Below are positions 1-16,656 of a DNA stretch of 46,437 nucleotides, piece by piece. The position numbers and the translations under genes are program-made. The notes below the pieces were generated by a model that searched no databases, was not told where the DNA came from, and was given only the letters and a program-made list of their open reading frames with translations. This stretch comes from Bacillota bacterium (GTDB lineage Bacteria; Bacillota; Clostridia; Peptostreptococcales; Anaerovoracaceae): assembly GCA_017431785.1 (NCBI GenBank), contig JAFRKJ010000060.1:1-46437 (forward strand), in the 5' to 3' direction. How positions within the stretch are numbered: position 1 is the first letter of the stretch; every line of letters begins with the position of its first letter.

Positions 1-3000
1 ACAACCAATACAAACTACACCGTAACATTTGATGTAACTGATGGCTGGCTGCAGATCACACCGGCAGATCTGACCGTAACGATCACAGGTAACAATGATA
101 CAAAGACCTACACAGGATCAGAACAGTCAGTGACTGGCTATACTGTTAGCATCCCTGAAGGCGCGACACTGACAGAAGCAGAAATAGAAGGCCCTACCCA
201 GACAGCTGCGATCGCTAAGGGAACTGATGTAGGCGGCGGAAGCAATGCGGACAAAACCTATCCAATGGGTCTGAAGGCAGAAGATTTCAGCACGACTAAT
301 ACGAACTACAACGTAACATTTGATATTACTGACGGCTGGCTGAAGATTACGCCAGCAGAACTGACCGTAACAATCACAGGTAACAATGATACAAAGACCT
401 ATACGGGATCAGAACAGTCAGTGACTGGCTATACTGTTAGCATCCCTGAAGGCGCGACACTGACAGAAGCAGAAATAGAAGGCCCTGCTCAGACAGCGGC
501 CATTGCCAAGGGAGCTGATGTAGACGGCGGAAGCAATGCAGACAAGACCTATCCAATGGGTCTGAAGGCAGAAGATTTCAGCACAACCAATAAAAACTAC
601 GATGTTACTTTTGTAGTAACCGACGGCTGGCTGAAGATCACAAAGGCGGATATTATCGTAACGATTACAGGTAATACTGACACCAAGACATATAATGGTG
701 AAGAACAGTCCGTAACCGGCTATACGATTTCTATCCCAGAAGGAGCAAACATAACAGAGGATCAGATTGTTGGTCCTGCACAGAAAGATGCCATTGCCAA
801 GGGAACCGATGTAGACGGCGGAAGCAATGCAGACAAGACCTATCCAATGGGTCTGAAGGCAGAAGACTTCAGCACGACCAATACAAACTACACTGTTGAG
901 TTCCAGATTGAAGATGGGTGGCTGAAGATTGAACCGCTTCCTGTAACAGTACTCATTTATGGAGAACAGGATACCAAGGATTATGATGGAAAAGAGCATT
1001 CCGTTTCCGGATACAATCCAATCATACTTGATGGTACGGGTACGACAGAAATCAATCTTTACAAGGAGACTGACTTCACATTCACGGGAACTGCAGAAGC
1101 GAAGAGAACCGTTGTCGGACAGACTGACATGGGTCTGACAGAAAGTCAGTTTAAGAACAATAACAACAACTTTACAGTTTCATTTAGGGTAGTTGAAGAC
1201 GGTTTCCAGAAGATAGATCCAATCGATGTAACCGTAACAGTTGTTGGTGCAAACAATACAACAGACTATGACGGCGAAGCCCACACCGTTACAGGCTACA
1301 CTGCAACAGCAGATAGCGAGCTGTACGATGTAACAAAAGACTTCACCTTCAGCGGCACTGCTACAGCATCCAGAACAGATGCCGGACAGACTGACATGGG
1401 TCTGGCAGCTGGTCAGTTCACAAACATCAATCCGAATTTCGGAACTGTTACGTTCAACGTAACCGACGGTTTCCAGAAGATAGATCCAATCGACGTGACT
1501 GTAACAGTTGTTGGTGCAAACAACACAACAGACTATGATGGCGAAGCCCACACCGTTACAGGCTACACTGCAACAGCAGATAGCGAGCTGTACGATGTAA
1601 CAAAAGACTTCACGTTCAAAGGCACGGCGGAAGCATCTAGAACAGATGCAGGAACAACCAATATGGGTCTGGCGGCAGATCAGTTCACAAATACAAACAC
1701 GAACTTCAAGACAGTTACGTTTAACGTAACTGACGGTTACCAGAAGATCAATCCAATTGACGTAACTGTAACCATAGTTGGTAACAATAACACAGCTGAT
1801 TATGATGGAACCGAGCATTCAATAAGTGGCTACACAGCGACAGCAGACAATGCATTGTATAACGTGGACAGTGATTTCACCTTCAGCGGGAAGGCAGAGG
1901 CAAAGAGAACTAATGCCGGCAAGACTGGCATGGGATTGACAGCAAGTCAGTTCACAAATACAAATGGTAACTTTGCAAATGTAACCTTCAAGATTACCGA
2001 CGGTTACCAGAAGATTGATCCAATTGACGTAACAGTAACCATCACTGGTCATAACAATACGGCCAATTATGATGGTACTGAGCATGCGGTTGCAGGCTAC
2101 GATGTAGAAATCAGCAATCCGCTGTACAAGCAGACTGACTTCACGTTCAGTGGTACTGCTACAGCATCCAGAACCGATGCTGGAACGACCACCATGGGTC
2201 TGGCAGCGGATCAGTTCACGAACAACAATACAAACTTCGGAACGGTAACGTTCAATGTCACCGACGGTTACCAGAAGATTGAACCGATTGACGTAACAGT
2301 CACCATCACAGGTCACAACAATGCAACGGATTACGATGGCAAAGAACATAGCGTCAATGGCTATGATGTAGAAATCAGCAATCCGCTGTATAAAGAAGCT
2401 GACTTTACATTCAGTGGTACTGCATCAGCGGCCAGAACGGATGTCGGAACGACAGACATGGGTCTGGAGGCAGAGCAGTTCACGAATACGAACAACAACT
2501 TCAAGAACGTAACCTTCAACGTAACTGATGGATACCAGACAATCAATCCAATCAACGTTATAGTAACTATCACAGGACATAACAATACAACGACGTATGA
2601 TGGAAAAGAACATAGTGTCAGCGGGTATGATGTAGAAATCAGTAACCCTCTGTACACAGAAGCAGACTTTACATTCAGCGGCACTGCAGAAGCCAAGAGG
2701 ACGATTGCTGGAACAACCAACATGAACCTTTCAGCAGAGCAGTTCACGAACAACAATACAAACTTCGGAACGGTAACATTCAATGTAGTAGATGGATACC
2801 AGACAATTACAAAGAAAGATGAGGTTGTTGTCACCATCACAGGCCACAACAATACAACTGACTACGATGGAAAAGAGCATAGTGTCAACGGTTACGATGT
2901 AGAAATCAGTAACCCATTGTACACAGAAGCAGACTTCACCTTCAGTGGCGAAGCTGCAGCGGCAAGAACAGATGCTGGAACGACAGACATGGGTCTGGCG

Positions 3001-6000
3001 GCTAGTCAGTTTACAAATACGAATGACAACTTTGAAAATGTTACATTCGTTGTAACGGACGGATATCAGACGATCAGCCCAATCAATGTAACTGTTACTA
3101 TCGTAGGTAATAACAGCACAGAATCGTATGACGGCAAAGAGCATTCCGTCAGCGATTACATCGCAACAGCCAGCAACGATCTGTACGATGTGAAGAAAGA
3201 TTTCACATTCAGCGGAACAGCAGAGGCGGCCAGAACGGATGTCGGAACGACCAACATGGGACTTGCTGCAGACCAGTTCACAAATACAAATAAGAACTTC
3301 GGCACAGTAACCTTCAACGTTACTGACGGTTACCAGACAATCACACCAATCGATGTGACAGTGACTATCGTTGGTAACAACAACACAACAGATTACGATG
3401 GCGAAGAACATACTGTAACAGGTTATGAAGCAACAGCTAGCAGCAATCTGTACGATGTGAAGAAGGACTTCACCTTCAGCGGTACTGCAAAAGCTGCTAG
3501 AACGGATGCCGGTACGACCAATATGGGCCTGGCGGCAGAGCAGTTCGCAAATACAAATCCGAACTTTGGAACAGTAACCTTCAACGTAACAGACGGTTAC
3601 CAGACAATCAATCCGATTGATGTAACAGTAACTATCGTAGGTGCAAATAATACGACAGACTATGATGGAGCAGAGCATGAGGTCACAGGCTACACTGCGA
3701 CAGCAAGCACGGATCTGTACAATGTTGATGCAGATATCGAATTCACTGGCACTGCATCTGCAGCCAGAACAGAAGTCGGAACAACCAACATGAATCTGGC
3801 AGCAAGCCAGTTCGCAAATAAGAATTCGAACTTCGGAACAGTAACGTTCAACGTAACAGACGGTTACCAGACAATCGAACCTATCGATGTAACAGTAACT
3901 ATCGTAGGTGCAAACAACACGACGGATTACGATGGGACAGAGCATAGTGTCAGCGGCTATGAAGTAGAAATCAGCAACCCACTGTACACAGAAGCTGACT
4001 TTACATTCAGCGGCACTGCATCTGCCACTAGAACGGATGTCGGAACGACAAATATGAACCTGGCAGCAAGCCAGTTCACAAATACAAATCCGAACTTCGG
4101 AACAGTAACCTTTAACGTAACAGACGGTTACCAGACCATTGAGCCGATTGATGTAACAGTCATCATCACAGGCCACAACAATACAACAACATATGACGGT
4201 GCGGAGCACAGTGTCAGCGGTTATGATGTACAAATAAGCAATCCACTGTACACAGAAGCAGACTTCACATTCAGTGGCGATGCAACAGCTGCTAGAACAG
4301 ACGAAGGTACGACCAACATGAATCTGGCGGCTGACCAGTTCACAAACAACAATAAGAACTTCAGAACAGTAACCTTCAACGTAACCGATGGTTACCAGAC
4401 CATTGCTCCAGTTGATGAAGTTGTCGTCACCATCACAGGTAACAGCAATACAGCAGCTTACGATGGCGAAGAGCACAGTGTCAGCGGCTATGATGTACAG
4501 ATTAGCAATCCTCTGTACACAGAAGCAGACTTCACCTTCAGCGGCACTGCAGAAGCTGCTAGAACGAATGCCGGAACGACCAACATGGGTCTGGCAGCAG
4601 ATCAGTTCACAAACAACAATAAGAACTTCGCGAAGGTAACCTTCAATGTAACCGATGGTTACCAGACGATCACACCAATTGATGTGACAGTGACGATTGT
4701 TGGTGTAAATGACATATCAGATTATGATGGCGAAGAGCACAGCGTCAATGGCTACTCAGCAACAGCCAGCAACGATCTGTACGATGTGGAGAAAGATTTC
4801 ACCTTCAGCGGCACTGCAGAAGCTGCTAGAACGAATGCCGGAACGACCAGCATGGGACTTGCGGCAGATCAGTTCGAGAATACAAATCCGAACTTCGGTA
4901 CAGTAACCTTCGACGTGACCGACGGCTACCAGACAATCACACCAATTGATGTGACAGTAACTATCGTAGGTAACAACAACACGACCGATTACGATGGCGA
5001 AGAGCACACTGTAACAGGTTATACTGCAACAGCCAATAGTGATCTGTACGATGTAACGAAGGACTTCACCTTCAGCGGAACAGCAAAAGCTGAGAGAACG
5101 GATGCCGGAACGACCAACATGGGACTTGCTGCAGACCAGTTCGAAAATACAAATAAGAACTTCGGAACGGTAACCTTCAACGTAACAGACGGTTACCAGA
5201 CGATCAATCCGATCGATGTAACAGTAACTATCGTAGGTGCGAACAACACAACAGATTACGATGGTGAAGCACATACGGTAACAGGTTATACAGCAACTGC
5301 GGACAACGATCTGTACGATGTAACGAAGGACTTCACCTTCAGCGGAACAGCACACGCTGAGAGAACGGATGCCGGCACGACCAATATGGGACTTGCTGCA
5401 GACCAGTTCGAAAATACAAATAAGAACTTCGGAACGGTAACCTTCAACGTTACTGACGGCTACCAGACGATCAATCCGATCGATGTGACAGTAACTATCG
5501 TAGGTGCGAACAACACAACAGATTACGATGGCGAAGCACATACGGTAACAGGTTATACAGCAACAGCAGACAATGATCTGTATGATGTGACGAAAGACTT
5601 TACGTTCACACCAGATGAAGGCGCAACCATCGTTGATGGCAAGATTGCAGCAACCAGGACAGATGCTGGAACAACCGACATGGGACTTGCGGCAGATCAG
5701 TTCGAAAATACAAATAAGAACTTCGGAACGGTAACCTTCAACGTTACTGACGGTTACCAGACCATCAATCCAATCGATGTGACAGTAACGATTACCGGTC
5801 ACCATGATTCCACGACTTATGATGGCAAAGAACATAGTGTCAGCGGTTACGATGTAGAAATCAGCAATCCGCTCTATAAGGAAGCAGATTTCACATTCAG
5901 CGGCGATGCAACAGCTGCTAGAACAAATGAAGGTACAACCAACATGAATCTAGCGGCAGACCAGTTCACAAACAACAATAAGAACTTTGGAACGGTAACC

Positions 6001-8165
6001 TTCAACATTACAGATGGTTACATGACAATCGTTCCGGTCGATGAGGTTGTCGTCACCATCACAGGTCATCATAATACGACCGCATATGATGGTGCATCCC
6101 ATAGTGTCAGCGGTTATGATGTAGAAATCAGCAATCCGCTCTATAAAGAAGCAGATTTCACATTCAGCGGCACTGCTGAAGCAGAGAGAACCAATGCCGG
6201 CACGACCAATATGGGTCTTTCAGCAGATCAGTTCACAAACAACAATAAGAACTTCGCGAAGGTAACCTTCAACGTAACCGATGGTTATCAGACAATCACA
6301 CCGATAGATGTAACAGTTACCATCACTGGTGCTAGTAACACGACGCCATATGATGGAAGAAACCATAGTGTAACTGGCTACACAGCAACAGCGAGCAGTG
6401 ATCTGTATGACGTAACGAAGGACTTCACCTTTAGTGGGACTGCTGAGGCAGAAAGAACAAATGTCGGCACGACAAACATGGGCCTGGCGGCAGACCAGTT
6501 CGAAAATACAAATAAGAACTTCGGAACAGTAACCTTCAACGTAACAGATGGTTACCAGACCATCACTCCAATCGACGTAGTAGTCACCATCGTCGGTGCG
6601 AATGACACAGTCGACTATGATGGCAATACGCACGGCGTAAAGGGTTACACAGCAACAGTAAACAGCAGTCTGTACGACGTAACGAAGGACTTCAAGTTCA
6701 GCGGTACAGCACTTGCCGAGAGAACGGATGCCGGTACGACTAACATGGGTCTGGAGGCAGACCAGTTCGAGAACACAAATCCGAACTTCGGAACAGTAAC
6801 CTTCGACGTAACAGATGGTTACCAGACCATCAATCCAATTAATACGAAGGTAACGATCGTCGGTGCAAAAAACACAACAGATTACGACGGTGCAGAACAT
6901 ACGGTAACAGGTTATACGGCAACAGCTGACAGTGCTCTGTACGATGTAACGAAGGACTTCACCTTCAGCGGTAGTGCAGAAGCCAAGAGAACTGATGCTG
7001 GTACGACTGAGATGGGTCTGAAGGCAGACCAGTTCACCAATACGAACACCAACTTCAAGACAGTAACCTTCGAGGTAACGGACGGTTACCAGACCATCAA
7101 TCCGATTGATGTGACAGTTACTATCACTGGTGCGAGCAACACAGCACCATATGATGGAGAGAACCACGGTGTAGCCGGCTATACAGCAACAGCCAGCAAT
7201 GATCTGTATGATGTGGACAAAGACTTCATCTTCACTGGCGATGCGACAGCTGAGAGAACAGATGCAGGCACAACGAACATGGGCCTGGAGGCAGACCAGT
7301 TCACGAACAGGAACGATAACTTCGCAAACGTAACCTTCGAAATCACGGATGGATACCAGACAATCACTCCGATTGATGTGACAGTCACTATCACAGGTCA
7401 TAACAATACGGCGACCTACGATAGTAAGGAGCATAGTGTCAGCGGATATGATGTAGAAATCAGCAACCCACTGTACAAGGAGGCAGATTTCACATTCAGC
7501 GGCAAGGCGGAGGCGGCCAGAACAAATGTCGGAACAACCAACATGAATCTGGCGGCAGACCAGTTCAAGAACACGAACAATAACTTTGCAACAGTAACCT
7601 TCAATGTTACAGATGGTTACCAGACAATCACACCAGTCGATGAGGTTGTCGTCACCATCACAGGACATCATAATACGACCGCATATGATGGTGCAGCGCA
7701 CAGTGTTAACGGATATGATGTAGAAATCAGCAACAGCCTGTACAAGGAAGCAGACTTCACATTCAGCGGCAAGGCAGAAGCGTCCAGAACAAATGCAGGC
7801 ACAACGAACATGGGTCTGGCAGAAAACCAGTTCGCTAACACAAATGACAACTTCGCGAAGGTAACCTTCAATGTAACAGATGGTTACCAAACCATCACAC
7901 CGATTGATGTAACAGTTACCATCACAGGCAACAGTGATACAGCAACCTATGATGGAAAAGAGCACAGTGTCAGTGGCTACACAGCAACAGCAAGCAGCAA
8001 CTTGTACGATGTGGCGAAGGACTTCACCTTCAACGGAGAAGCAACAGCGAAGGGCACAAATGCCGGCACGTACAATATGAACCTGAAGGAGGACCAGTTC
8101 ACCAATACGAGTGATAACTTCAATGTTCAGTTCGTAGTCAACGATGGAACACTTGAGATTGAACC
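1..8165 (+). repeat. Tandem 264-291 bp coding repeats with a six-unit super-repeat
   Basis: Units are 291 bp (first three), 267 bp (type A, with TATA..LYDV) or 264 bp (type B, with EISNPLY). The 267-bp period can be measured directly between the ATCAATCC copies at 5203 and 5470. A distinctive linker, DEVVV in place of DVTV, recurs at 2818, 4414, 6040 and 7639, that is every 1596, 1626 and 1599 bp, always six units apart. The 1626 spacing is explained by a 27-bp insertion in one unit near 5610-5650. Units between linkers follow nearly the same order (one B, three or four A, then B), which points to duplication of six-unit blocks. Confidence 0.9.
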
Positions 8166-9294
8166 TGCTCAAATCACAAATGACTTCGATGTTACCGATC
8201 CTGAGGATGTAGAGTACAACGGCAGAGCACAGGAACAGAAAGTTACTGTAGTTGATACACAGGCAGACAATGGTACGACCTTAAAGGAAGGCAAAGACTA
8301 CAAGCTTTCATACAGCGGCGACACAACGAATGTAACAGAGGGCGGAGTAACTATCACGATCACTGGTACAGGAAACTACACAGGAACGATTACGAGAACA
8401 TATCATATTACTCCGGTCGAACTGACGCTCACATCAGCAAGTGACAGAAAGGTTTATGATGGCAAAGCACTCAGAAACGGCACAGTACATGTTAGCCTCA
8501 TATCCAAGGCAAAGACAATCAATGCTGATGTACAGGGAAGCCAGAAGCTCTTAGGCAATGACATCATTACCTTCAATGTAACAGGAAGCCGCGTAGCAGT
8601 AGGAACAAGCGAAAACGCATTCACATATGCATTCGACAGAGCAACTGTTGGTGGTGCAGGTGCGATGATTAAGGAATTCTTCATTGACGCATTTGCGGAT
8701 ACTGAGGAATCCATCGCAGGAAACTACGTCATCAAGAAGGTGAATGGTACACTGACAGTAACGGAGGCTCCAACACCAACACCGACACCAACGCCGACAC
8801 CAACACCTGACGGCGGCGGCAATAACCCTGGCGGCGGCGGTAACCCGGGCGTTGTAGCAGCAGCACCACCGGCACCGGCAGCACCGGCGACCATTGTTGA
8901 TGATACAACACCTACAACGATCACAGATGAGCCTCTGCCAAGAACAGTTGCAGCATACTGGGCACTGATCAACTTGATCTGCGCAATCCTGACTGCACTT
9001 CTCTCACTGATCATGCTGATCAGATACTTCGGCAAGAGACGTGAAGAAGACGAAGAGACAGGTGAAGTCACTGAAATCAACCGCAAGGGCGGCGTCAAGC
9101 TCGCCAGCATCATACCGGCGATCGGCGCGATCATCGCGTTCATCCTCACTGAGGACATGAGTCTGCCAATGCAGCTGGTCGACAAGTGGACTCTGCTCAT
9201 GGTAGTCATCCTGGCAATCCAGGTACTCGTAGCATTCTTCTCAAGAAAGAAAGAAGAAGAGGACGACGAGAATGACGAAGGCGCTATGGCATAG
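1..9294 (+). CDS. Giant YDG-repeat surface protein, 5' truncated by window edge
   Basis: The frame is open from base 1, so the true start lies upstream; 3097 residues are visible. About 30 tandem beta-type modules carry a YDG-like motif (Y-[DTN]-G-x-x-[HQ]-[ST]-V), followed by two divergent MBG-like modules (about 8180-8760). The first three modules are a 97-residue variant and most later ones are 88-89 residues. A PT-repeat and Gly-rich linker (about 8769-8850) leads to a C-terminal region with LPRT followed by a hydrophobic segment, a Lys/Arg/Glu-rich loop, two more hydrophobic segments and an acidic tail. I infer a long extracellular stalk or adhesin held in the membrane; a sortase role for LPRT is doubtful because two more membrane segments follow. 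Ligand and N-terminal domain are not visible. A clear terminator follows the stop, so it is probably the last gene of its transcript. Confidence 0.9.
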   Translation, partial: TTNTNYTVTFDVTDGWLQITPADLTVTITGNNDTKTYTGSEQSVTGYTVSIPEGATLTEAEIEGPTQTAAIAKGTDVGGGSNADKTYPMGLKAEDFSTTNTNYNVTFDITDGWLKITPAELTVTITGNNDTKTYTGSEQSVTGYTVSIPEGATLTEAEIEGPAQTAAIAKGADVDGGSNADKTYPMGLKAEDFSTTNKNYDVTFVVTDGWLKITKADIIVTITGNTDTKTYNGEEQSVTGYTISIPEGANITEDQIVGPAQKDAIAKGTDVDGGSNADKTYPMGLKAEDFSTTNTNYTVEFQIEDGWLKIEPLPVTVLIYGEQDTKDYDGKEHSVSGYNPIILDGTGTTEINLYKETDFTFTGTAEAKRTVVGQTDMGLTESQFKNNNNNFTVSFRVVEDGFQKIDPIDVTVTVVGANNTTDYDGEAHTVTGYTATADSELYDVTKDFTFSGTATASRTDAGQTDMGLAAGQFTNINPNFGTVTFNVTDGFQKIDPIDVTVTVVGANNTTDYDGEAHTVTGYTATADSELYDVTKDFTFKGTAEASRTDAGTTNMGLAADQFTNTNTNFKTVTFNVTDGYQKINPIDVTVTIVGNNNTADYDGTEHSISGYTATADNALYNVDSDFTFSGKAEAKRTNAGKTGMGLTASQFTNTNGNFANVTFKITDGYQKIDPIDVTVTITGHNNTANYDGTEHAVAGYDVEISNPLYKQTDFTFSGTATASRTDAGTTTMGLAADQFTNNNTNFGTVTFNVTDGYQKIEPIDVTVTITGHNNATDYDGKEHSVNGYDVEISNPLYKEADFTFSGTASAARTDVGTTDMGLEAEQFTNTNNNFKNVTFNVTDGYQTINPINVIVTITGHNNTTTYDGKEHSVSGYDVEISNPLYTEADFTFSGTAEAKRTIAGTTNMNLSAEQFTNNNTNFGTVTFNVVDGYQTITKKDEVVVTITGHNNTTDYDGKEHSVNGYDVEISNPLYTEADFTFSGEAAAARTDAGTTDMGLAASQFTNTNDNFENVTFVVTDGYQTISPINVTVTIVGNNSTESYDGKEHSVSDYIATASNDLYDVKKDFTFSGTAEAARTDVGTTNMGLAADQFTNTNKNFGTVTFNVTDGYQTITPIDVTVTIVGNNNTTDYDGEEHTVTGYEATASSNLYDVKKDFTFSGTAKAARTDAGTTNMGLAAEQFANTNPNFGTVTFNVTDGYQTINPIDVTVTIVGANNTTDYDGAEHEVTGYTATASTDLYNVDADIEFTGTASAARTEVGTTNMNLAASQFANKNSNFGTVTFNVTDGYQTIEPIDVTVTIVGANNTTDYDGTEHSVSGYEVEISNPLYTEADFTFSGTASATRTDVGTTNMNLAASQFTNTNPNFGTVTFNVTDGYQTIEPIDVTVIITGHNNTTTYDGAEHSVSGYDVQISNPLYTEADFTFSGDATAARTDEGTTNMNLAADQFTNNNKNFRTVTFNVTDGYQTIAPVDEVVVTITGNSNTAAYDGEEHSVSGYDVQISNPLYTEADFTFSGTAEAARTNAGTTNMGLAADQFTNNNKNFAKVTFNVTDGYQTITPIDVTVTIVGVNDISDYDGEEHSVNGYSATASNDLYDVEKDFTFSGTAEAARTNAGTTSMGLAADQFENTNPNFGTVTFDVTDGYQTITPIDVTVTIVGNNNTTDYDGEEHTVTGYTATANSDLYDVTKDFTFSGTAKAERTDAGTTNMGLAADQFENTNKNFGTVTFNVTDGYQTINPIDVTVTIVGANNTTDYDGEAHTVTGYTATADNDLYDVTKDFTFSGTAHAERTDAGTTNMGLAADQFENTNKNFGTVTFNVTDGYQTINPIDVTVTIVGANNTTDYDGEAHTVTGYTATADNDLYDVTKDFTFTPDEGATIVDGKIAATRTDAGTTDMGLAADQFENTNKNFGTVTFNVTDGYQTINPIDVTVTITGHHDSTTYDGKEHSVSGYDVEISNPLYKEADFTFSGDATAARTNEGTTNMNLAADQFTNNNKNFGTVTFNITDGYMTIVPVDEVVVTITGHHNTTAYDGASHSVSGYDVEISNPLYKEADFTFSGTAEAERTNAGTTNMGLSADQFTNNNKNFAKVTFNVTDGYQTITPIDVTVTITGASNTTPYDGRNHSVTGYTATASSDLYDVTKDFTFSGTAEAERTNVGTTNMGLAADQFENTNKNFGTVTFNVTDGYQTITPIDVVVTIVGANDTVDYDGNTHGVKGYTATVNSSLYDVTKDFKFSGTALAERTDAGTTNMGLEADQFENTNPNFGTVTFDVTDGYQTINPINTKVTIVGAKNTTDYDGAEHTVTGYTATADSALYDVTKDFTFSGSAEAKRTDAGTTEMGLKADQFTNTNTNFKTVTFEVTDGYQTINPIDVTVTITGASNTAPYDGENHGVAGYTATASNDLYDVDKDFIFTGDATAERTDAGTTNMGLEADQFTNRNDNFANVTFEITDGYQTITPIDVTVTITGHNNTATYDSKEHSVSGYDVEISNPLYKEADFTFSGKAEAARTNVGTTNMNLAADQFKNTNNNFATVTFNVTDGYQTITPVDEVVVTITGHHNTTAYDGAAHSVNGYDVEISNSLYKEADFTFSGKAEASRTNAGTTNMGLAENQFANTNDNFAKVTFNVTDGYQTITPIDVTVTITGNSDTATYDGKEHSVSGYTATASSNLYDVAKDFTFNGEATAKGTNAGTYNMNLKEDQFTNTSDNFNVQFVVNDGTLEIEPAQITNDFDVTDPEDVEYNGRAQEQKVTVVDTQADNGTTLKEGKDYKLSYSGDTTNVTEGGVTITITGTGNYTGTITRTYHITPVELTLTSASDRKVYDGKALRNGTVHVSLISKAKTINADVQGSQKLLGNDIITFNVTGSRVAVGTSENAFTYAFDRATVGGAGAMIKEFFIDAFADTEESIAGNYVIKKVNGTLTVTEAPTPTPTPTPTPTPDGGGNNPGGGGNPGVVAAAPPAPAAPATIVDDTTPTTITDEPLPRTVAAYWALINLICAILTALLSLIMLIRYFGKRREEDEETGEVTEINRKGGVKLASIIPAIGAIIAFILTEDMSLPMQLVDKWTLLMVVILAIQVLVAFFSRKKEEEDDENDEGAMA

Positions 9295-11658: not shown

Positions 11659-14157
11659 TTACCGTGCCATCAGCTCATTTCGCTTGATTTTTCCGTTGAA
11701 GGTGCGCGGGATCTGGTCGATGACTTCGACAACCTTCGGCTGCTTGTTGGCGTCGAGAACTTTTGTCAGGAACGACTTGAATGCTTTTGCATCGTATTCA
11801 GCGTCGGCTTCCAGTGCGATGAAGAGCTTCGGCGCCTGGCCGGTCACGGCGTCGTCCATAGGAATGCAGGCGCAGTCGCGGATGATGTCGGACTTGATGA
11901 CCTGACTCTCAATTTCTTCAGGACTGATTTTCACGCCGCCGAAGTTGATGACGTCGTCTTTGCGGCCCAGCATGTAGACGTAGCCGTCTTCGTCGATGTA
12001 ACCGAGGTCTTTGGTGTAGATGTACTCGCCGTCTGTTGCCTTTGCGGTGAGCTCCGGCGCCTTGAAGTACTCCTTCATGTTGATGGCACCGCGGCTTGCC
12101 AGGAATCCCAGGTTGTCGCGGGAGGATTCGATCGGATTGCGGTTTTCATCTACGACGATGAACTCTGCGTTTACAGCCGGACGTCCGATGCAACCGGGAG
12201 CACGCTGTGCGTTTCCGGACACGCCGCTGCCGGATGAGTCGCCAGTACCGTCGGGGTCACCGTTGAAATCCATGAGGCAGGAGCATCCGGCTTCGGTGCT
12301 CCCGTAGAAGTTATACAGGCGTGTCTTTGGCAAAATGCGTGACAGGTGGCCCTTGTCTTCCTCGGAAAGCGGTGCGGAGCCCAGTTGGATGTAGTCGAGA
12401 ATATCTGCATAGTCGCCGAGACGGTCTTTGCTCAGCTTGAAGAAGATGTTGAGGATGCTCGGCGATAAGTCCATAGCAGTCACGTGGTACTTGTCCATCA
12501 GCTTGAAGACATTCTTCAGCAGCATGATGTTATCTGCAAAAACCACACTGCTTCCGTTGGCCAGATTTGCATAAGTTCTGCGCAGGCCGTGGGAATGGGA
12601 GGTCGGCATCGGCACCAACTCAATATTGTCCGGTTTCATCTTAACGCCGAAGCAGACATTCTCAGCAAGAGCGACATCATTGGCATGTGTGAGCACGATG
12701 CCTTTGCTTTTGCCTGTGGTTCCGGTGGAAAAAAGGATCTCCGCAACATCTTCCGCTTCTGGAAATGCGATGAGTTCCAGGTCTTCGATGGAACCTCTGT
12801 AAACGTTATCTATGATCTGCCCCAATGCAAAGTCAGGGACGGTTTTGATGTCCATGTGCGGAATACCCAACTCGCTTTCGAGCTCAGGGATTTCACGGGC
12901 GCCGATGTGAAGTGCAGCTTCCGTTTCTGACGCGATCTCGATGATGCGTCCGGTGGCTGCATTCTTCTCAAGTGGTACAGAAATGGCGCCGAGAAGCTGA
13001 ACTGCAAGGACGGTAACTAAGTAGTCGACGCTCTGGTTGCACTCGATGACAACGCAGGATTGTTTCGAAATGCCGCGGTTGCTGAGTTCCATAGCAAGAC
13101 CGCAGATACCATCCCAGGCTTCTTTGTAGGTGATGGACTTATGCTCGTCCGCCATGCACAGTTTGTCCGGATTCCTGACAGCGTTGCGCGCCAGGTTTTC
13201 GACGATGGAAGGGTAGAAAGCGCGTGCTGGGACGTTGACTTCTTTAAGCGCCTTGATGAATTCTGCAGCGGCTCTTGACAAATATTTGTTGCGTGGATAG
13301 GCAACGTACATGCTGCGGGTGCAGATGGTTTCGTCTGCCAGGTAGAGCTCAGGCAGTTTGGCCAGACCGCTGGTACGGATGCTGTTTTCGGTGATCAGTG
13401 AAACGCCGACACCAGCCATGGTGAGTGCCAGTGAAGTCATGGTTTGCTCAACATGGATCGTCTTCTCTGGACGGCAGCCGTATTTCTCGAAGAGTTGTTC
13501 CATCATCCTGCCGATGTTCTGATCCTCACGAAGTAAGATAAATGGGCAGTTGCAAAGCATTTTGAATTCATCTTTTGTAATGCTTTTGCCGTTGAAACCT
13601 TTGTCTGTGTTGCCGCCTGCAAAGCTGGCGTTGATATCCCAGTCCGCCGGTACTGCCAGAAAGACACGCTCCTTGAGGAGTTCTTCGTAGACGAAGCGGT
13701 CCGGTTCGTCCGCGTCAGGGGTAATAAACAGATCAAGTCTGCCTTTGAGCGCCTCCGTTGCGAGGAAAGGCACATTGCCGTCGACGATTTCAATATTCAC
13801 GCCGGGGTAGTCTTTCGCAAAAGCACCAACTGCCCTTGGAATATATGCAATGTTAAAGAACACGGCGCCGCCGATGGTAAGGCTGCCTGTTTCAAGACCT
13901 TCGATATCTGCGATGGTCTGTTCCAGTTCCTTTTCAAGAGAATGGGTGCGCTCCAGATAATTAAGGTAAGCCTGGCCGGCTTCTGTCAGCTCTAAAGGCT
14001 GGCGGCTCCGGTCGAAGAGAACAGCACCGACTTCTGCTTCAGTCTTCTTTAGATGGGCGCTGAGGGCTGGCTGGGAAATGCCCAGACTTTCAGCAGCGGC
14101 GGAAATACTCCGCATTTCAGCGATAGCTTTGATGTAATTGACAGTCTTTTTTTCCAT
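11659..14157 (-). CDS. LysR-type regulator fused to adenylate-forming (ANL) ligase
   Basis: One uninterrupted 832-residue frame. Residues 1-60 are a LysR winged helix (SISAAAESLGISQPALSAHL, then LFDR and LTEAG). Residues about 90-303 are the periplasmic-binding-protein-like effector domain (GSLTIGG, LKGRLDLFITP, MAGVGVSLI). After a short link (about 303-316) a whole ANL enzyme follows: A3 STGTTGKSKG at 477-486, A5 YGSTE at 618-622, A7 core D717-L-G, A8 GRKDD at 731-735, and A10 NGKIKR with catalytic Lys823. No core residue is obviously lost, so carboxylate adenylation, perhaps to a CoA thioester, is plausible. A Gly/Ser-rich insert lies at about 632-655. The N-terminus is divergent from the DUF3793-flavodoxin promoter and the 3' end converges on galE. 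Inference: a regulator able to activate or sense its own carboxylic-acid ligand. Target genes and substrate are unknown. Confidence 0.93.
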   Translation of the reverse strand: MEKKTVNYIKAIAEMRSISAAAESLGISQPALSAHLKKTEAEVGAVLFDRSRQPLELTEAGQAYLNYLERTHSLEKELEQTIADIEGLETGSLTIGGAVFFNIAYIPRAVGAFAKDYPGVNIEIVDGNVPFLATEALKGRLDLFITPDADEPDRFVYEELLKERVFLAVPADWDINASFAGGNTDKGFNGKSITKDEFKMLCNCPFILLREDQNIGRMMEQLFEKYGCRPEKTIHVEQTMTSLALTMAGVGVSLITENSIRTSGLAKLPELYLADETICTRSMYVAYPRNKYLSRAAAEFIKALKEVNVPARAFYPSIVENLARNAVRNPDKLCMADEHKSITYKEAWDGICGLAMELSNRGISKQSCVVIECNQSVDYLVTVLAVQLLGAISVPLEKNAATGRIIEIASETEAALHIGAREIPELESELGIPHMDIKTVPDFALGQIIDNVYRGSIEDLELIAFPEAEDVAEILFSTGTTGKSKGIVLTHANDVALAENVCFGVKMKPDNIELVPMPTSHSHGLRRTYANLANGSSVVFADNIMLLKNVFKLMDKYHVTAMDLSPSILNIFFKLSKDRLGDYADILDYIQLGSAPLSEEDKGHLSRILPKTRLYNFYGSTEAGCSCLMDFNGDPDGTGDSSGSGVSGNAQRAPGCIGRPAVNAEFIVVDENRNPIESSRDNLGFLASRGAINMKEYFKAPELTAKATDGEYIYTKDLGYIDEDGYVYMLGRKDDVINFGGVKISPEEIESQVIKSDIIRDCACIPMDDAVTGQAPKLFIALEADAEYDAKAFKSFLTKVLDANKQPKVVEVIDQIPRTFNGKIKRNELMAR

Positions 14158-14219
14158 GTTGGTTGCCTTTGCCTCATATTTGTAAATAGTTATAGTTATA
14201 AAAACAGCATAAGAATAAC

Positions 14220-14225
14220 ATTATA
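14220..14225 (-). promoter_or_regulatory. Candidate -10 box for the LysR-ligase gene
   Basis: The minus strand reads TATAAT here, 62 nt before the start codon; no good -35 is present at standard spacing. A direct repeat ATAGTTATAGTTATA at 14186-14200 lies between it and the gene and could be a regulator site. Weak call. Confidence 0.35.
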
Positions 14226-14268
14226 CCTTCGACATGTCAAAAAATCTTGAACGTTGTGAGAAAAAACC

Positions 14269-14303: not shown

Positions 14304-14321
14304 GGTTAGTGAAGACTAACT
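14304..14321 (+). promoter_or_regulatory. Palindromic operator 1 (GTTAGT-N4-ACTAAC)
   Basis: GTTAGT (14305-14310), GAAG, ACTAAC (14315-14320), placed at the predicted transcription start. The half-sites resemble the TTAG..CTAA core of DtxR/IdeR-type metal-regulator boxes; this family assignment is inference. Confidence 0.65.
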
Positions 14322-14363: not shown

Positions 14364-14381
14364 GGTTAGTCATAACTAACC
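14364..14381 (+). promoter_or_regulatory. Palindromic operator 2 (GGTTAGT-N4-ACTAACC)
   Basis: GGTTAGT (14364-14370), CATA, ACTAACC (14375-14381), a perfect 7-bp inverted repeat. Its centre is exactly 60 bp from that of operator 1 and it lies in the 5' leader just before the ribosome binding site. Confidence 0.7.
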
Positions 14382-15547: not shown

Positions 15548-15575
15548 TTGGAATGGGTCGCCTTTGTGTTAGAAT
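15548..15575 (+). promoter_or_regulatory. Candidate eutH promoter
   Basis: TTGGAA (15548-15553), 16-nt spacer, TAGAAT (15570-15575). The predicted start site is at about 15582-15583, that is on the eutH ATG. Confidence 0.45.
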
Positions 15576-15582
15576 ACGAAGT

Positions 15583-16656
15583 ATGAACGCATTTATCGCT
15601 ATCATGCTGGTTTTCGCATGCATTGGATTTATAGATAAGGCCATCGGCGGCAAGTGGGGACTTGCTGATCAATTCGAAAAGGGTCTTTATACGATGGGTG
15701 TCATGGTCATTCCGATCGTGAGCATCTGCACCGTTGGAACCGAGTTCATCCGCAGACATATCGAACAGGTTTCGGCTTTGTCAGACCATCTGTTTTTTGA
15801 TCCGTCCATGATTATCGGAGCTATTCTCGCACCGGATATGGGTGGATATTTCATTTCCCGTGAGATTGCGGCGACCCCGGAACTGCTCGTTTTGAGTGGG
15901 GTTGTTCTGGGAACGCTCCTCGGTCAGGCTATCACGTTCCAGATGCCGGTGTTTATGGCTTCTATCCGGCGGGAGGATTACCCGTTCATGTTTCGCGGAT
16001 TCATTGTAGGAATCATCATGATTCCGGCAGGGCTGATTGTGGCGGAACTGATGATCAGAATGCCTCTCGGTTTGTTCATGCGGCAGTTTCTGCCGGTTCT
16101 TGTAATATGCGCCGTGCTGGCACTGTGCCTTTGGAAAGTGCCTGAGGGAACAACTAAGTTCTTTGCTGTTTTTGCACAGATCGTAAACTGGGCTTTCTAT
16201 TTGATGTTTGCCGTTGCGGTCATCGGCGTCTTCATTCCGAAGCTTGCATATGCCAGTCTTGATTCCGTGGAGGAAGCAGTTCTCATCGTCTTTAAGTCCG
16301 CGGTCATCATTGCCGGCTCCCTCGTAATGTCCGAGCTGATTCTCAAGTTCTTCCGGTCGCAGATCCACGCCGCGGCCAGCAGGATCGGCATCAACGAGAT
16401 TGCGGCTGTCTCACTGCTCATGACATGCGCGACATCGCTGGCTGTTATGCCTTTATTTGAGCGTATGGATGACAAAGGCAAGGAAGTCGTCGCGGCATTC
16501 AGCCTGAGCGGCTCCTTTGTCATCGGCGGATCCCTGGCATTTGTCTCAAATGTCACGACTGGTTATAACGTTTTGATTTTCGTTGTCACGAAGTTCGTCT
16601 GCGCCATCATCAGCGCTTGGGTGATTCATTTGATGTGGAAAAAACGCACCCCTTGA
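15583..16656 (+). CDS. eutH: EutH-like ethanolamine transporter
   Basis: The 357-residue polytopic membrane protein has about ten hydrophobic segments. It has EutH features: an N-terminal IGFIDKAIGG segment, GKWGLADQFEKGLYTMG, ILAPDMGGY and a C-terminal VMPLFERMDDKGK region. EutH lets ethanolamine cross the membrane at low external concentration. The start was taken at MNAFIAIM, which matches the family N-terminus; an in-frame ATG at 15553 would add ten residues but falls inside the candidate promoter. Neither start has a clear Shine-Dalgarno sequence. No other ethanolamine-utilisation gene is in the window, so either it works with a distant eut operon or it moves a related amine. Confidence 0.85.
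   Translation: MNAFIAIMLVFACIGFIDKAIGGKWGLADQFEKGLYTMGVMVIPIVSICTVGTEFIRRHIEQVSALSDHLFFDPSMIIGAILAPDMGGYFISREIAATPELLVLSGVVLGTLLGQAITFQMPVFMASIRREDYPFMFRGFIVGIIMIPAGLIVAELMIRMPLGLFMRQFLPVLVICAVLALCLWKVPEGTTKFFAVFAQIVNWAFYLMFAVAVIGVFIPKLAYASLDSVEEAVLIVFKSAVIIAGSLVMSELILKFFRSQIHAAASRIGINEIAAVSLLMTCATSLAVMPLFERMDDKGKEVVAAFSLSGSFVIGGSLAFVSNVTTGYNVLIFVVTKFVCAIISAWVIHLMWKKRTP

Follow-up and report, generated by a model that had tools for sequence, protein, structure and literature searches.

Regulator-enzymes of the BirA type are textbook cases of metabolism feeding into transcription, and their beginnings are rarely visible. In the excerpted accounts of group II biotin protein ligases (PMC4016012, PMC6391492), an N-terminal DNA-binding part of the enzyme controls genes for biosynthesis and transport. 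The excerpted text of PMC12754631 reports that two acyl-CoA ligases, FadD1 of Pseudomonas aeruginosa and DsfR of Burkholderia cenocepacia (the latter known here only through its description in that paper), are DNA-binding regulators too, and attributes the DNA binding of FadD1 to a part of its AMP-binding domain that resembles a leucine zipper; and MocR-type regulators and BzdR, as described in excerpts of PMC5320631 and PMC3602430, have a DNA-binding domain joined to an enzyme-like domain.

The window analysed here, a 46,437-nucleotide stretch of DNA from a member of the Anaerovoracaceae (contig JAFRKJ010000060.1), encodes a single chain in which a LysR-type regulator is followed by an adenylate-forming (ANL) ligase. 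Like BirA, as excerpted from PMC4016012 and PMC6391492, the protein is an adenylate-forming ligase that carries a DNA-binding part at its N-terminus and is predicted to control genes for its substrate, but it is made of other folds, namely a LysR regulator complete with an effector domain and an ANL ligase; a Pfam scan of the fusion found no biotin ligase domain, AMP-binding standing in its place. By analogy, the fusion would be BirA logic built from unrelated domains. It differs from FadD1 and DsfR, for which the excerpted source describes no fused LysR (PMC12754631), and from MocR and BzdR, in which, as far as the excerpts go, the enzyme-like domain serves as the sensor, whereas the fusion retains both catalytic motifs and an effector domain of its own. 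The first-pass annotation of this DNA knew of no described family that pairs these proteins, and our searches of open-access papers likewise brought up no description of a LysR fused with an ANL ligase or with a Dlt enzyme.

Structure and conservation of the fused gene

The strand of the gene, which the first-pass annotation did not name, is minus, and its parts are as follows.

11659 to 14157, minus strand: LysR-ANL fusion gene (P0001), 832 amino acids, one uninterrupted ATG-to-stop frame
13972 to 14139, minus strand: LysR DNA-binding domain (HTH_1), residues 7-62; Pfam, 66 bits against a cut-off of 26.6
13237 to 13899, minus strand: LysR effector-binding domain (LysR_substrate), residues 87-307; Pfam, 95 bits, profile positions 2-207 of 209
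13216 to 13233, minus strand: linker, residues 309-314; 6-13 residues across the six fused species, joining the final LysR helix to the ligase start xPSIVE
12064 to 13191, minus strand: ANL N-terminal (AMP-binding) domain, residues 323-698; Pfam, profile positions 2-384 of 384
11689 to 11916, minus strand: ANL C-terminal domain (AMP-binding_C), residues 748-823; Pfam, profile positions 1-76 of 76
11689 to 11691, minus strand: codon of the catalytic Lys823, last residue of the ANL C-terminal domain

All four Pfam domains exceed their gathering cut-offs. The regulator half has the N-terminal HTH and the complete effector-binding domain of the LysR family, and its effector domain aligns over its full length with those of LysR proteins encoded as separate (split) genes. 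A typical LysR-type regulator has about 300 amino acids and ends after the effector-binding domain; the fusion has 832, the ligase following. The ligase half has both ANL subdomains and the motifs A3 (STGTTGKSKG), A5 (YGSTEA), A8 (GRKDD) and the A10 lysine (K823, which is K509 in our alignment A2), and in an alignment of 20 fused and split homologues these columns either do not vary or are conserved to 90% or more. The junction reads VPARAFYPSIVEN; split ligases begin M(F)YPSIVEN or similar, and the window protein has ARAFYPSIVE at this point, so that a whole ligase stands behind a whole LysR. The single chain of LysR and complete ANL ligase, with motifs and K823 intact, that had been read from the letters of the window is thus upheld by Pfam, by the alignment of 20 homologues and by its recurrence in six species.

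Our search covered 61 genomes (37 of the genus, the window's own included, and 24 others of the order; genomes carry our handles G, loci L, contigs C). In G000, G008, G015, G007 and G004 the protein was matched over its full length within a single frame, with identities to the window fusion of 93% in G008, 83% in G015, 81% in G004 and 80% in G007. In G021 (assembly 96% complete, 7% contaminated) the fusion gene spans two contigs that overlap exactly over 141 bp. The fusion is therefore present in 6 of the 37 genus genomes, representing six species. The outcome that the first-pass annotation had named as fatal to its claim, that all relatives would encode the two halves separately, is thus not what is seen. 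A wider draw of 247 genomes from 120 genera of the order gave a full-length, one-frame match only in G000 and G004, the other fused species being absent from that draw. An open frame of 722 codons in G016 was considered as a further fusion and rejected, its upstream part lying antisense to a DASS gene.

Averaged over the five fused genes that are complete, pN/pS comes to 0.11 in the HTH, 0.22 in the hinge, 0.19 in the effector domain, 0.49 in the linker, 0.17 in the N part of the ligase and 0.14 in its C part, with mean pS between 0.57 and 0.80 by region: purifying selection acts on both halves of the fusion, and constraint is weakest in the linker. A chimeric assembly or a missed stop would be the trivial explanation of the gene, and the named records that carry it (RUG10876, RUG13204 and UBA1191, loci L009, L010 and L011) are indeed metagenome assemblies; we give this explanation practically no chance, and rule out an artefact or frameshift at the junction, since six separate assemblies from six species, low pN/pS and a single clade (see below) all speak against it. 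The recurrence of the single frame in further species likewise argues that the fusion is neither chance nor assembly error. No chain among the solved structures listed, 60 out of 217 with the ligase profile and those given out of 68 with the LysR profile, is named as a LysR-ANL fusion.

Origin from separate genes

Elsewhere in the genus and family, orthologous halves with the same catalytic motifs are encoded by two genes, each with its own start and stop, and in all 14 loci with both genes these lie on opposite strands; identity to the window is 48-65% for the split LysR and 65-76% for the split ligase. Of the 247 genomes drawn from the order, those with the ligase belong to the genus or, in 7 cases, to other parts of its family. 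In maximum likelihood trees of the ligase and the LysR, i) the fused ligase halves form one clade (100/100) nested among split genes; ii) four split ligases are the neighbours of that clade (93/92); and iii) the fused LysR clade (100/99) includes a LysR-only gene of G020, placed beside G021 (98/93), which stops a few residues beyond the junction. The fused clades and the position of G020 show that the fusion arose once, within one genus, and that the ligase half was later lost once, in G020. Separate genes, fusion and secondary loss of the enzyme thus all survive within one genus; with this series among close relatives, and with the candidate operator described below, the step to a self-regulating enzyme becomes testable.

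The same comparisons bear on the simplest account of the gene, in which the two halves keep their old separate jobs, no information passes between them, and the fusion is neutral or fixes only their ratio. Split homologues do perform both jobs apart, the linker varies in length and sequence, and the LysR half persists in G020 with its ligase gone; against this, one frame has been kept in six species despite pS of 0.57-0.80, and the only loss seen took away the ligase half and befell a genome with neither of the carrier and MBOAT genes discussed below. We put this account at slightly less than an even chance, and note that it is compatible with most of the explanation that we prefer.

One split ligase departs from the rest: in L026 (8001-9866) the ligase match falls in two pieces within one open frame of 649 codons, about 280 extra bases lying just ahead of the last 47 residues.

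Neighbourhood and likely role of the ligase

We read 25 split loci, 19 in a first comparison and 6 in a second, with L025 and L135 treated as the single locus that they are; contig ends truncate many of the loci. Of the 25, 16 have an SsuABC-like ABC importer or a DASS symporter and 13 have an MBOAT gene. The MBOAT protein matches Pfam MBOAT and is DltB-like (165 bits, below the cut-off of 375), and its gene usually comes after that of a protein of about 75 amino acids with a phosphopantetheine motif, which matches PP-binding narrowly (22.2 bits against a cut-off of 20.8). Ligase, carrier and MBOAT share one locus in all 7 family members found outside the genus, one of which (L139) has a ligase only 31% identical, and a ligase lies with an MBOAT in 6 further split loci. 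In 6 of the 7 loci outside the genus there is also c3, a protein of about 360 amino acids with no Pfam match, which we read as a DltD-like partner. The neighbourhood of the relatives therefore resembles DltABCD in its ANL ligase, small carrier, MBOAT and, often, c3. Because the split loci hold an importer or symporter, a DltB-like MBOAT and a small carrier, the ligase is most likely the "A" (activating) enzyme of a Dlt-like surface-acylation system, a reading for which this gene context argues fairly strongly.

The ligase nevertheless differs from DltA in its sequence and in its company. Against the NCBIfam DltA model (TIGR01734) the fusion ligase scores 126.3 bits, far below the cut-off of 559.85; a LysR and an anion importer accompany it; and its A4 region reads SHSHGLRR, invariant in 20 homologues. 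Amino-acid-activating enzymes have Asp in the A4 region, where the ligase has His; the acid is therefore probably one other than D-alanine. The invariant Arg pair, together with the anion importers, suggests an anionic acid as the substrate. If the Dlt-like reading is true, the system would acylate a surface polymer with an acid other than D-alanine and tie this to import of the acid.

Co-occurrence across the genus is in keeping with a joint role. Of 37 genomes, 21 have the ligase, 21 have the MBOAT and 18 have both (Fisher p 6e-5, in a test that ignores shared ancestry); the ligase occurs without a close MBOAT in G016 and G029, and the MBOAT without a close ligase in G014, G031 and G036. The fused species have a looser arrangement: MBOAT and carrier are present in 5 of the 6 fused genomes, always away from the fusion (in G000 on two different contigs), and neither could be found in fused G021 or in ligase-less G020. 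The carrier gene of G000 is at C80:15674-15898. G004 has a second ANL gene, 25% identical, near its MBOAT.

This unlinked arrangement, and the absence of both genes from G021, would also fit a ligase half that makes an acyl-CoA for catabolism or some other pathway, unrelated to carrier and MBOAT in the fused species, and the highest-scoring of the 25 NCBIfam models listed (of 153) is a CoA ligase subfamily, at 248 bits, below its cut-off of 476. We consider an acyl-CoA product rather unlikely, in view of the loci outside the genus, all 7 of which join ligase, carrier and MBOAT, the 6 further split loci with ligase and MBOAT, and the MBOAT found in 18 of the 21 ligase genomes.

Two side observations concern the genes of these loci. 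L017, L057, L059 and L064 share a recurrent run of c3, a gene for an AAA ATPase whose match to MadB falls below the cut-off, and a VWA_CoxE-like gene, and such c3-AAA-VWA genes occur away from ligase loci too. Clusters c10 and c32 of our first gene list were discarded, each being the antisense shadow of a real gene, the carrier gene and EutH respectively.

Candidate operators and other genes of the window

Upstream of the fusion we recognise two further elements.

14212 to 14240, minus strand: putative promoter of the fusion, TTGACA-N17-TATTCT
14208 to 14225, minus strand: putative autoregulatory dyad over the -10, TATAAT-N6-CTTATG

The promoter pattern TTGACA-N17-TAT[AT]CT is found in 6 of the 7 members of the clade (the six fused genes and the LysR-only gene of G020), G008 having TATCCT. 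The dyad CATAAG-N6-CTTATG scores at least 10 of 12 at the members' own promoters in 7 of 7 cases, compared with 1 of 87 control upstream regions, a count that is not blind, as some of these very promoters had served for picking out the half-sites by eye; at the same threshold it occurs in 21 of all 57 target regions (shuffled mean 0.4), which overlap one another and have 65% A+T as against 59% in the controls. A blind search for inverted repeats gave a mixed picture: among 500 shuffles, those as good as the real sequence numbered 8 for G007, 13 for G020, 7 for G021 and 26 for G015 (only marginally above shuffles), and 481 for G000, 476 for G008 and 404 for G004, which is no signal. A longer dyad, CTTATG-N11-13-CATAAG, occurs exactly, and at the own promoter only, in G007, G015 and G020; in G000 its only exact copy lies at an unrelated place on C48, there is none in G004, G008 or G021, and the reversed control is present in G008, G015 and G021.

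The same dyad, with one more half-site, stands at an unlinked importer operon in G000, G008 and G007 (importer binding proteins 62-64% identical), and no LysR match was found in the stretches read at these three operons. The importer promoter of G000 lies at C87:48650-48720. The full array, ATAA-N8-TTATG-N4-CATAA, is exact at 6 places in the 37 genomes: the importer promoters of G000, G007, G014, G030 and G034, and the gap between ligase and LysR genes in G022. Four of the 6 were known before the genome search, those of G014 and G034 being new; with one mismatch allowed the array gives 42 rows, as against 31 for its reversed control. The exact site in G014 (L104, G014:C123:16466-16491) lies at an importer operon, and no close ligase or LysR was found in that genome despite it. 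Two LysR-like genes of about 90 amino acids that consist of the HTH only (L102, 6097-6366, minus strand, in G034; L067, 2655-2933, minus strand, in G019) sit just upstream of an ABC importer operon, and are possibly remnants or mini-regulators.

Since the dyad stands both at the clade's own promoters and, in three fused genomes, at an importer operon elsewhere, the chimera probably autoregulates through this candidate site and probably controls acid import in trans. Of the targets offered by the first-pass annotation, "itself" has gained a conserved candidate dyad over the -10 of the gene, and "at a distance" the same dyad at the unlinked ABC-importer operon of three fused genomes.

Taken as a whole, the explanation that we think probable is a single-chain regulator-enzyme, a Dlt-like ligase joined to its own regulator. 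Specifically, i) the ligase half would adenylate an imported, probably anionic carboxylic acid, and ii) the activated acid would be loaded on the dedicated carrier of about 75 amino acids, for use by the DltB-like MBOAT and the DltD-like c3, two steps to which gene context lends fairly strong support; more tentatively, iii) the LysR half may bind the acid or its adenylate, iv) it may act on the dyad over its own -10, negative autoregulation being the simplest reading, such that the chimera would repress or tune its own promoter in answer to the acid, and v) in G000, G007 and G008 it may also act on the dyad at the unlinked SsuABC-like importer. With regulator and enzyme made from a single gene, and hence in a fixed ratio, import of the acid, its activation and transcription would be tied together.

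A closer coupling would make the ligase the true sensor, an acyl-adenylate or an idle state of the enzyme switching the LysR half on its operator. The excerpted account of group II biotin protein ligases shows the same logic (PMC4016012), and in our case the fused gene itself and an importer are the predicted targets; we nonetheless hold it to be quite unlikely, because the LysR half retains a full effector domain of its own and a second sensor is then unneeded. The corresponding evolutionary conjecture, that the fusion is a second "BirA" that evolved recently in one step, with the state of the enzyme (acyl-adenylate formed or carrier depleted) setting how far the operators of its own gene and of the acid importer are occupied, seems to us no less improbable than the coupling itself.

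Returning to the window, a transporter gene lies beyond the 5′ end of the fusion.

15553 to 16656, plus strand: EutH-family transporter, found in all 7 clade members 5′ of the fused gene or of the LysR remnant

The EutH gene has the same strand as the fusion or LysR remnant in 4 of the 7 and the opposite strand in 3 (the window, L010, L011, L056, L060 and L061 being among the seven), and the association may be positional only. No close importer binding protein was found in fused G004, G015 and G021, where EutH may replace the importer as cognate transporter, but its orthologues (60-75%) also occur in ligase-less G001, G003, G010, G011, G012 and G025.

The divergent promoter of a DUF3793-flavodoxin pair, also put forward by the first-pass annotation as a target, did not survive comparison: of 30 loci compared, only the window and L009, its nearest relative, have the pair next to the fusion, which makes 2 of the 7 clade members, and the dyads there differ from the candidate operator. 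Two such TTAGT..ACTAA dyads on the minus strand upstream of the pair (14305-14320 and 14364-14381, GGTTAGTTATGACTAACC and GTTAGTCTTCACTAAC) resemble DtxR/IdeR-type iron boxes, which would fit with the flavodoxin downstream. Finally, positions 130-9294 of the window hold a frame of more than 3,000 amino acids with many similar repeats of about 70 residues, a stretch rich in Pro/Thr and Gly/Asn/Pro, and hydrophobic segments near the C-terminus, whose product looks like a surface protein.
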